A stretch of DNA of 64,000 nt, from positions 1,488,001 to 1,552,000 of the forward strand of contig PPXM03000001.1 in assembly GCA_003707065.3 (NCBI GenBank). Reading direction: 5' to 3'. The notes beneath the pieces were generated by a model. That model was not told where the DNA came from. It did no database searches and was given only the letters and a program-made list of their open reading frames with translations. The translations under genes were made by a program, and so were the position numbers. Within the stretch, counting starts at the first letter, position 1. Each line of letters starts with the position of its first letter. Of this stretch, positions 1,792 to 7,081 are shown piece after piece. The DNA comes from Trigonopsis variabilis. Lineage: Eukaryota > Ascomycota > Trigonopsidomycetes > Trigonopsidales > Trigonopsidaceae.

Positions 1792-2745
<954 letters not shown>

Positions 2746-2792
2746 CTAGACGTCACGTTAGTCTTGAAACAAGAGTATACTAAAAACTGGAC

Positions 2793-2886
2793 GCATGTTC
2801 TTCCGCTGGTTTTACCCAGATCAAGTTCAACCGTATGATCTCAGCCGGATCCATCTATTAAAGATTGGATCCGGCACCGGCCATGC
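2793..2886 (-). promoter_or_regulatory. TPP riboswitch in THI4 5'UTR intron
   Basis: On the minus strand the leader contains all core pieces of the TPP (Thi-box) aptamer in order. P1 closes by GCATG (2886-2882) pairing with CATGC (2797-2793). GGTGCCGGATCC begins P2/P3; the repeated GGATCC/CCGG segments pair in an extended P3. GCTGAGAT (2845-2838) is the pyrimidine-binding motif. TTGAACTTGATCTGG (2830-2816) and ACCAGCG (2810-2804) form P4/P5 and the pyrophosphate pocket. It lies inside a probable 5'UTR intron with donor GTAAAT at 2969, branch-like GACTAAC at 2763-2757 and acceptor TCTAG ending at 2746. Further GT and AG sites (GGTAAAACC within P5, TTTTTAG downstream) could be alternative splice sites. 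This is the arrangement known for fungal thiamine genes, where ligand binding changes splice choice. Which sites are used is inferred. Confidence 0.93.
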
Positions 2887-3493
2887 CCAATTATTAGTAG
2901 CATTGCTCAAGCTGATACAATTCTACCCTTGCACTCGTATGTAACATGTCATCCATAATGGGTATTTACCTAGTAAACTATCGATGATATCTGGTCTGAA
3001 GATGCCTTTTGGCGGCAGCCAAGACCTCCTTATATAGTTTTCTGGGCTCTCCATTCTAGTCTCCTATTGGTGGTGAACAAGACACAAATGCAGATAGTTA
3101 TGGCCTTGCTTACTGTATGGAGATCTTCTCGCCGCGCATCCCGTTGTCACGGGTTGAGCCGGTTCTGGACTGTTGGGCCTCCAACGCTCCTCAGGGATAG
3201 AATAAGTCTTTTAGTCGATCAATTGGTCATATAAAAGGTGTTTCTACGTCCTAATGTACATAGCATCATGCACAGACTGGTGGAACCGATCATCAGGCTC
3301 AATTGTGTCTGCCCGATCTCCCATGTGGGGTAGGCTATAGTCAAAGATGTCCGCTAAGGCAGACCAAAAAAGAAAAAAGGTCGCAGGTGTGCTAGCGCAT
3401 GACATTGGCTAGATCGGGTCTGGTGATGTAAATGTGAACACTGGCAAGCGAACCATGCTTGTAGTAGAGCTACGTATTGAGGCATCTACAAGG
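2887..3493. promoter_or_regulatory. THI4 promoter region
   Basis: Read on the minus strand, a TATATAAGG box lies at 3036-3028 and a CCAAT box (ATTGG on plus) at 3065-3069. Both are well placed for a start site near 3000, just upstream of the 5'UTR intron donor at 2969. The rest, up to the end of the PIN-like gene, shows no gene I can support. Confidence 0.5.
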
Positions 3494-4864
3494 CTATTGT
3501 ACTCTAGTAAGCTTGACAATCACTGCTGCATAAGCAACGGATGGACTCATAAGCGGAGTGAGGATATAGGAAATAAGAAGCATCCGGGAAATCATGGCCA
3601 TTTCCTGGTCATTGACACCGGCCAATTGGGCGACTATTGTTAGAAGGGAAACGGTGAGATGAGTGCTACTTACTAGACGCGAGTGTGATGGCGGGAGGGC
3701 CGCTGCTGACAATGATGAGAATGAAATCGAGAATGGGATCATCCATCCATGCATTGGGCCAGCAGGTTTTGATCCAATAGACAGCCATACCTGAGATGAA
3801 AGGGACAATGAAGAATCTGGCCAGAAGCATCACCGCAATTGCAGTCTTATTGATGACTACCGGGGCACGATTGGCCAGATTAGGTCCTAGAATGAATAGC
3901 TGAGCGGCAGGAAAGAGGTCGCCCAGATTTTTCAGAGACAATGTCACTGTATTGGAGAAGACAGCATCATCGAAGAAGAGATAGTGAGTGAAAGGAATGA
4001 CGCTGATGACAATAGTAAGAACGGCGGCGATGGATGCAGGATTTGTAAGGGCTTTAAGGTATCTCCTAGAAGATTGGAATACGCTTTTTAGCTTGAATTG
4101 GTAGTATTTGGGTGGATGGCCCAGCAAGGGATATTCCTCGGATGAGCCACTAGCCTCATTGGCTTGTCGCTCCCCTAATCGATTTTCCGTCTCAAGGAGC
4201 TGCAAAGAATTGCGCCTGATTGTCTTATGGAGCATTCTCGGGCCCAATGTGAATCTAAACAGGTTGTGAACCACTGAAGCCATCAACGTATAACTGTGAG
4301 CTCTGGCGACGATTTCTTCGATAGTTTCTCCTGGCCGCATCATCTTATCCAGGGCATGGTTCTTGGCCAGCGACTGGAGAAGAAGAATTTGGAGGCTGGT
4401 GACGTTGTTGAAAGCCAGTCCAGGAAGGAAGAAGTCTGGAAAGTCCAGGTATTCCACAAGCAGGTAGCCTACCGTACTTAGACTTATAATTATCACCGTA
4501 GAAAACACGATAATTGGCCAGTATGCCTCCAGAGTTTCGATCGTGATCTTGGGACCCATAGAGGTCAACATGAGACAAGGTAAGAACACACTGACACATA
4601 TCCGAGAAAGCCTCTATCAAGTTAGAATGGTCTTGTATTCCATGGTCTATGACGATTGTTTGATATCAAACCGAGAATCTCGGTCTTGAACTCAAAGTCG
4701 CGCAAACCTAGGAGGCGACCAGCGATGCCTACCTTGCTGTCCTCGAGGCTCAAAATGCCCCCTCTGGAACAGAAGTACCCGTATCCTAGATCCAGTAAAA
4801 CCGCAACAGACGCCTGGGCAGAAGATACACCGGTTTCGACAACTTCATGCCATGGAATCTTCAT
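3494..4864 (-). CDS. PIN-like (auxin efflux carrier family) membrane transporter
   Basis: Three exons: 4864-4733, 4613-3674 and 3633-3494, joined by introns of 119 and 40 nt (GTAGGC...TTGATAG and GTAAGT...CTAACAATAG) to give 403 residues. The N-terminus (VLLDLGYGYFCSRGGILSLEDSK, then RLSRICVSVFLPCLMLTSMG) is the first helix hairpin of fungal PIN-like carriers. The C-terminal SSGPPAITLAS-IAQLAGVND followed by SRMLLISYILTPL is the matching second half. About ten hydrophobic helices surround a hydrophilic central loop. Fungal members sit in the ER or plasma membrane and their substrate is unsettled, so I assign only the family. The start is the ATG at 4864, the only one in frame with the family N-terminus. 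It is divergent from CDK1 with about 170 bp between the two starts. Confidence 0.85.
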
Positions 4865-6436: not shown

Positions 6437-7081
6437 ATGACTCGAAGCGCCAGGGAGCAGACTCGACCTTCAATAGTCGGGCCAGAGGCTCCTAGTGCAC
6501 CTTATCCTATTTACGTCTCGACCCATGTCACTGCCGGGTTTGGCCGGGGCTCGGCTCAGCTGGGAATCCCTACTGCAAATGTCCCTATAGATGCCAAGGC
6601 TCAAATGACCGGTAGAAATGGATTGTATACTTTGACATTTGAGAATGCTCTAGGGGATACCGGGATCTACTTTGGCTGGGCCAAGGTAATTCCTCACAGT
6701 CTGCAAGACGACGAAAGAGCGAGTCTTCAGAGTGACCAGGATGCACACCCGAACCGAACCAAGGAGATAGTCATGGATGGAGGGGAGCATCTGGAAAAAG
6801 TTGATGAATCTGTCTATCCCATGGTCATGAGCGTTGGATGGAATCCTTTCTTCCATAATAAGACCAAGAGTGCTGAGATCCATATAATGCATAAGTTCAA
6901 ACATGATTTTTATGGTGCCTCTGTGCGATTCATTGTTTTGGGCTACGTTCGTCCTGAGCTCGACTATATCTCGGTCGAAGCGTTGATCGAAGATATCAAT
7001 ACCGACATCAAAGTGTCCCAGGCAAGTCTGGCCCGTCCGGCTTACAAGGAGTTTCAAAAGGATCCGTTTTTTAATGAATAG
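6437..7081 (+). CDS. FMN1: Riboflavin kinase FMN1
   Basis: Phosphorylates riboflavin to FMN. This uninterrupted 214-residue frame carries THVTAGFGRGSAQLGIPTAN with the flavokinase PTAN motif that binds Mg-ATP. It continues with GIYFGWA and SVGWNPFFHNKTKSAEIHI, then HDFYGASVRFIVLGYVRPEL and ALIEDINTDI, all typical of fungal Fmn1. A low-complexity insertion between GWA and MVMSVGW (about residues 80-125) is common in fungal members. The ATG at 6437 is chosen because the family begins 20-25 residues before the GFGRGS block. A short uORF lies just upstream. Confidence 0.95.
   Translation: MTRSAREQTRPSIVGPEAPSAPYPIYVSTHVTAGFGRGSAQLGIPTANVPIDAKAQMTGRNGLYTLTFENALGDTGIYFGWAKVIPHSLQDDERASLQSDQDAHPNRTKEIVMDGGEHLEKVDESVYPMVMSVGWNPFFHNKTKSAEIHIMHKFKHDFYGASVRFIVLGYVRPELDYISVEALIEDINTDIKVSQASLARPAYKEFQKDPFFNE

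Follow-up and report, generated by a model that had tools for sequence, protein, structure and literature searches.

The minus strand of the stretch of DNA analysed here, 64,000 nt from Trigonopsis variabilis and referred to below as the window, carries a genuine aptamer of the TPP riboswitch family, predicted to bind TPP, within a candidate 224-nt intron in the 5' leader of the THI4 gene. The aptamer, the gene, the intron signals and the upstream ATGs are all present. By analogy with published fungal switches, from which we infer both the direction of control and the splicing step, TPP probably blocks productive splicing of this leader intron; splicing control had also been proposed in a preliminary description of this DNA, and on the same analogy it is probable. 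When TPP is scarce, the 224-nt intron would be removed, giving a leader without an upstream ATG, and THI4 would be made. When TPP is plentiful, it would bind the aptamer, productive splicing would fail, and the retained intron would put seven upstream ATGs ahead of the THI4 start, with the result that little enzyme would be formed. According to the available portions of two papers (PMC5882874, PMC5997356), the TPP riboswitches that fungi carry in THI4 leader introns work through splicing and upstream ORFs; related literature, also available in part, includes PMC11900860 and PMC7404189. Interpretation as a THI4 leader-intron switch is therefore sound and of a known kind, and its only possibly new part is a predicted pairing switch within the intron. 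The features are summarized in Table 1.

Table 1. Features of the THI4 leader and of a second TPP riboswitch in the genome (positions are those of the window unless a locus is named)
Feature	Position	Strand	Basis
TPP riboswitch aptamer (RF00059)	2781..2891	-	57.5 bits against gathering 54.3, E 1.2e-8
P1 5' strand GCAUG	2882..2886	-	model pairs mapped
P1 3' strand CAUGC	2793..2797	-	model pairs mapped
Outward P1 extension, 5' side, including TACTAAT; partner 2790-2778	2887..2899	-	predicted fold
Outward P1 extension, 3' side	2778..2790	-	predicted fold
Long P3 stem-loop	2844..2875	-	5 model pairs; 13 pairs with one bulge in predicted fold
P4/P5 arm with L5 loop GUAAAA	2800..2825	-	model pairs mapped
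Possible alternative donor in P5/L5, GGTAAAACC	2808..2816	-	sequence; U1 duplex -6.5 kcal/mol
Candidate THI4 5' leader intron, 224 nt	2746..2969	-	GTAAAT at 2969, CTAAC at 2761, TAG ending 2746; next exon GAA-ATG
Main donor candidate GTAAAT	2964..2969	-	sequence; U1 duplex -6.7 kcal/mol
Branch-point motif CTAAC, 8 nt before TAG	2757..2761	-	sequence; 2-8 nt in 18/20 GTAAG-type short intron candidates
Acceptor TAG	2746..2748	-	sequence
Seven upstream ATGs, first bases 2956, 2952, 2947, 2903, 2884, 2854, 2796	2794..2956	-	sequence
TATA-like box	3030..3034	-	sequence; ATG-free from box to donor
Alpha, GGAUGACAUGUU, proposed exchange segment just 3' of donor	2943..2954	-	-15.4 kcal/mol with alpha', -12.7 kcal/mol with branch point/acceptor
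Alpha', AACAUGCGUCC, includes P1 3' strand	2789..2799	-	paired with alpha in predicted folds for transcript ends 2780, 2770
Alternative partner of alpha: branch point and acceptor	2747..2760	-	13 predicted pairs with 2955-2942
THI4 coding frame, 316 aa, intron-free	1792..2742	-	PF01946, 374.3 bits
Sibling TPP riboswitch in 318-nt intron of urea-transporter-family gene	L005 5128-4811, aptamer 4995-4885	-	61.6 bits

The THI4 gene and its surroundings

The coding frame that follows the leader matches PF01946 with 374.3 bits, in agreement with its earlier identification as THI4. The 11.35-Mb genome contains eight matches to PF01946, of which only the THI4 of the window spans the model, the other seven being short pieces. 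The best 120 of the 3006 matches to the Thi4 protein all have at most 83% identity, and the named relatives among the matches listed are Sugiyamaella, Lipomyces, Dipodascopsis, Limtongia and many Pezizomycotina. In a Thi4 tree of 28 rows, 27 of them chosen from the best 120 of the 3006 matches, the window sequence falls on no well-supported branch, and a search of viral contigs with the THI4 protein returned zero loci. The window contributes a THI4 switch from an ascomycete that possibly belongs near the base of the budding yeasts; early-branching budding yeasts are among the nearest relatives listed for its protein. In the sections available, THI4 switches are given for just three Saccharomycetes (PMC5882874) and are called rare in early-branching budding yeasts (PMC5997356).

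Immediately upstream of THI4 there is a minus-strand gene (3494-4600) for a PF03547 membrane transport (auxin-efflux-like) protein, which has a typical short intron, GTAAGT...CTAACAATAG. A riboflavin kinase domain (PF01687, 108 bits), marking another vitamin-cofactor gene, is found on the plus strand at 6437-7081, ~3.7 kb from THI4. In the genome, THI6-, HMP-kinase- and TPK-type matches are present. PF09084, the NMT1/THI5 family, has two matches only: a 276-aa protein (L008 1333-2163, minus strand, 63.4 bits) that has no riboswitch match, and a match of 25 bits (L009) within a gene that we take to encode ATP phosphoribosyltransferase. A standard THI5 may be absent from this genome.

The TPP aptamer

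When the whole window was compared with Rfam by cmscan, positions 2891-2781 of the minus strand matched RF00059 over the complete model (1-105 of 105) with 57.5 bits and E 1.2e-8, the gathering cut-off of this family being 54.3 bits. The preliminary description had recognized a TPP riboswitch on this strand and had put forward an Infernal search with RF00059 as a check; the covariance-model match bears the identification out. It is the sole Rfam match above gathering across the window, and a permissive scan added two sub-threshold matches, to other families and elsewhere. With the model pairs mapped onto the sequence, 22 of the 23 pairs present are standard, the five pairs of an optional stem being deleted; P1, P2 and P3 each have 5/5 standard pairs, P5 has 4/4 and P4 has 3/4, its remaining pair being G-G. 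The CUGAGA segment is present (CTGAGA at 2844). The folding stability of the 111-nt aptamer corresponds to a z of -3.35, one of 200 dinucleotide shuffles being equally stable.

The pairing of GCATG (2886-2882) with CATGC (2797-2793) in P1 is as described earlier; the description of this closing helix as short applies to the core only, which is extended outward in the predicted fold. Across a 2-nt bulge, AAUUGG (2892-2887) is predicted to pair with CCAGUU (2790-2785), and further out UACUAA (2899-2894) with UUAGUA (2783-2778). P3, which had been called long, has 13 predicted pairs with one bulge. As a branch point, TACTAAT (2899-2893) was rejected: by eye there is no AG within the next 14 nt, unlike in 18 of the 20 GTAAG-type intron candidates of this genome. 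It more plausibly forms the 5' strand of the P1 extension, as in the predicted fold.

The candidate leader intron and its upstream ATGs

The final base of the candidate intron, 2746, is three bases ahead of the THI4 ATG (2742). The interval given in the preliminary description is its exact span, from GTAAAT to CTAAC, 8 nt and TAG, and the intron-like leader with a branch point and acceptor beside the ATG that was proposed there is plausible from the signals present. The candidate intron is unusually stable in folding (z -4.12), none of 200 dinucleotide shuffles being equally stable, and there is no second copy of it in the genome. Its signals were compared with those of short introns in ~300 kb of the same genome, in a survey whose statements rest on 20 candidates with GTAAG donors. 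This class stands out with its 20 candidates, the most frequent class in the individual controls having 5-9; survey totals do not separate real from false donors (117 candidates with GT, 89-139 with seven false dinucleotides), and another survey was dominated by noise (93 with GT against 89 and 78 with false donors). A branch-like motif is found 2-8 nt ahead of NAG in 18 of the 20 GTAAG-donor candidates, and thus the 3' end of the candidate intron fits the genome. The main donor at 2969 must be considered weak, because GTAAA donors, with A at +5, occur in only 2 of the 117 candidates.

All seven intronic ATGs begin open frames that close before the THI4 start, whereas the predicted spliced leader has zero upstream ATGs. 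At one in 64, 3.5 ATGs would be expected in 224 nt; the seven observed are about twice this chance expectation and are accordingly a matter of consistency rather than proof. It could be argued that the leader is unspliced and that TPP acts on translation or RNA stability, given that the intron is a candidate recognized from sequence signals and that the available part of PMC5882874 describes a class of switches lacking splice sites (Type IV of Mukherjee et al.), chiefly in THI4 and urea transporters. We give this proposal hardly any credence, since the donor, the branch motif and the acceptor are all there with proper spacing, and since without splicing the seven upstream ATGs would always precede THI4.

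Alternative donors

If the leader is spliced, the question arises of which step TPP might affect. The preliminary description placed an alternative donor within the P4/P5 arm, to be masked directly by ligand binding. There is indeed a donor-like stretch, GGTAAAACC (2816-2808), within P5/L5; it pairs with U1 nearly as well as the main donor does (-6.5 against -6.7 kcal/mol), and its predicted openness is 0.67 with the aptamer against 1.00 with the aptamer forbidden. It is nevertheless very improbable that the site (2815) is an alternative 5' splice site whose masking by the ligand is the regulatory event. An mRNA spliced from 2815 to the main acceptor would still carry six of the seven upstream ATGs and so would be an OFF product; by removing it, masking by TPP would favour expression at high TPP and oppose feedback. 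Moreover, GGTAAAACC is an ordinary P5/L5 stretch, for which the Rfam consensus is GGuUAAUaCC, and the donor motif is not kept in the sibling aptamer, where the loop is UUAAUA. Occasional use of the L5 donor may occur.

A further scheme is that of the NMT1-like Type I switches of Neurospora, in which the P4/P5 arm of the TPP-free RNA covers a second donor that is used in the presence of TPP, keeping the upstream ORFs. In its favour, Type I is the class to which the available part of PMC5882874 assigns the leader switches of THI4 and NMT1 in many fungi, and there is a weak donor-like site at 2926 (GTAGAA, U1 duplex -5.9 kcal/mol), which could be the second donor. We consider this scheme unlikely in T. 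variabilis: the second donors on offer, 2926 and L5, are all weak; the 2926 product would join an upstream frame in frame to THI4; and the P4/P5 arm pairs with donor regions no better than chance in three tests, with 1227, 2391 and 1858 of 3000 random segments as good. The place where the arm pairs best is indeed at the donor (2974-2958, -11.4 kcal/mol), an energy matched by 1227 of the 3000 random genomic segments.

It should be noted that two splice products would fuse upstream frames in frame to THI4: splicing from 2815 to the main acceptor would place MDPAEIIRLNLIWE- (from the frame at 2854-2816) before MSPP, and splicing from 2926 to the same acceptor would place MDDMLHTSARE- (from the frame at 2956-2927) there. 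Both may be coincidence.

A possible exchange of pairing partners

The manner in which TPP might block productive splicing is suggested by the predicted folds of the intron, in which a segment just 3' of the donor, alpha, has two partners. In the absence of TPP, alpha (2954-2943) would pair with alpha' (2799-2789), leaving the branch point and the acceptor freer; TPP would lock alpha' into P1, and the released alpha would pair with 2760-2747, hiding the branch point and the acceptor. Such a three-partner exchange, by which the THI4 switch would be aimed at the branch point and the 3' splice site, is a tentative model that we think may well be wrong; though unproven, it is the better-fitting one when set beside donor masking in L5.

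Evidence for the exchange comes from folding of growing transcripts and from duplex energies. A transcript ending at 2790 has only six alpha:alpha' pairs, and in longer transcripts alpha is predicted to be paired with the branch point and acceptor; alpha' and this second target resemble each other. The alpha:alpha' duplex (-15.4 kcal/mol) has p values of 0.016 and 0.008, and the alpha:acceptor duplex (-12.7 kcal/mol) of 0.015 and 0.078; the single duplexes are thus reached by ~1-3% of controls, except for 7.8% with shuffles of the acceptor target. Both matches on one segment were found in 2 of 4000 shuffles. Among 6000 genomic segments, 68 reached the energy of alpha:alpha', 156 that of alpha:acceptor and 4 both; with 6000 random targets the corresponding numbers were 119, 60 and 0. 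These values must be read with the proviso that alpha was picked out in the predicted folds before its statistics were run, and that the idea of an alternative partner for the P1 3' strand, taken from published Type II switches, narrows this freedom of choice and does not remove it. The match to the bare 5-nt P1 3' strand is not significant (p 0.67). The parts of the intron that flank the aptamer form 28 mutual pairs, against a mean of 7.8 in shuffled flanks, a number reached by 0.7% of 300.

The predicted balance between the two states depends on where the transcript ends, and all folding results rest on one energy parameter set. Over 70 choices of ends, the alpha:alpha' and P1 states are from -2.6 to +4.0 kcal/mol apart. 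Adopting the alpha:alpha' state frees the acceptor by more than 0.1 in 58 of the 70 choices and the branch point in 44, and for neither is a loss of freedom above 0.1 seen; donor openness falls in 40 choices and rises in 9. With ends at 2746 or 2735 the branch point is not freed by the alpha:alpha' state, and for transcripts ending at 2700 the ensemble energy favours the P1 state by ~2 kcal/mol. In equilibrium folding with four choices of ends, the donor, branch point and acceptor were unchanged whether the aptamer was free, enforced or forbidden; the alpha exchange would therefore require a choice made while the RNA is being transcribed, or one imposed by the spliceosome. Strong ligand dependence is also disfavoured by the length of P1 plus its extension. 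If the alpha exchange is real, it would explain the switching of a 224-nt intron with one good donor candidate, and would constitute a compact, testable eukaryotic riboswitch acting on the branch point and acceptor.

The sibling switch and other matches in the genome

In a whole-genome search with RF00059, 49 of 441 first-look candidates were scored and four matches were listed, of which two pass the cut-off: the THI4 leader and the sibling (61.6 bits). The gene that contains the sibling is presumably DUR31/NCU01977-like; the best named matches of its transporter protein are in Lipomyces, Myxozyma, Tortispora and Limtongia, with up to 60% identity. The sibling intron has two GTAAGT donors (5128, 5082), both before the aptamer. 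Beside the second donor, AACACAUU (L005 5092-5085) has an 8-bp match to the P1 3' strand, such a match being present in 65 of 5000 random segments; the duplex energy does not reach significance (p 0.22 and 0.31), and in the predicted AACACAUU-paired state the second donor is more open, not less (0.66 against 0.37-0.52). Long-distance pairing in the sibling is hence a lead only, and the predictions are partly contrary to the exchange idea. Pairing of its P4/P5 arm with the donors is at chance level (2337 and 1078 of 3000).

The other two listed matches are attributed to chance. One (L003, 18 bits) overlaps a 462-aa frame on the opposite strand. For the other (L004, 15.7 bits), cmscan gave no match at E 10 and CTGAGA was not seen; it lies ~175 nt before an ORF that we take to encode an SSS transporter.

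Comparison with known TPP switches

Fungal TPP switches have been sorted into four types, as set out in the available sections of PMC5882874. With the THI4 leader-intron switches of Neurospora crassa and many Pezizomycotina, assigned to Type I in the same sections, the T. variabilis switch shares the aptamer family, the gene, the 5' leader intron and the intronic upstream ATGs; as in Type I, the aptamer is in a 5'UTR candidate intron with upstream ORFs and with its acceptor just before exon 1. It differs in having neither a good second donor nor above-chance pairing between the P4/P5 arm and a donor. One donor and one acceptor are also what is described for DUR31 of Ogataea polymorpha, a single-donor yeast switch in which, according to the part of PMC5997356 available, the spliced form is seen only in thiamine-free cells, thiamine preventing the fully spliced product. 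In DUR31 it is a transporter gene that contains the intron, and full-length protein is not encoded by the unspliced form, whereas the THI4 intron is in the leader. Hiding of the branch point in the ligand-bound state, proposed here, has a parallel in algal TPP switches, for which pairing with the branch point has been predicted (PMC5997356, available in part); these are compared by description only, and the hiding strand in T. variabilis would be, unlike theirs, alpha after the donor.

The alpha exchange itself is closest to Type II. In NCU01977 of N. crassa, as described in the portions available of PMC5882874 and PMC5997356, the P1 3' strand could, without TPP, be paired with a segment that follows the first donor, and in the THI4 leader the segment after the first donor is likewise complementary to the region of the P1 3' strand (-15.4 kcal/mol). 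Type II is characterized, in the same portion of PMC5882874, by an intron of 650-900 nt, a urea-family transporter gene, the alpha core RGCGGYRRY and alternative donors; it is said there that the long-distance mechanism regulates no genes besides urea transporters, and in the available text of PMC11683625 that Type II is confined to a subset of urea-transporter switches. In a literature judged mostly from listings, no alpha exchange in THI4 was found. The switch of T. variabilis, with a biosynthesis gene, a 224-nt leader intron, GGAUGACAUGUU as alpha and no strong second donor, is unlike NCU01977 also in its proposed target, the branch point and acceptor instead of alternative donors. We therefore do not file it as Type II; at most it works like one. 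If it does, the alpha/alpha' principle would extend to a biosynthesis gene, aimed at the acceptor instead of at alternative donors.
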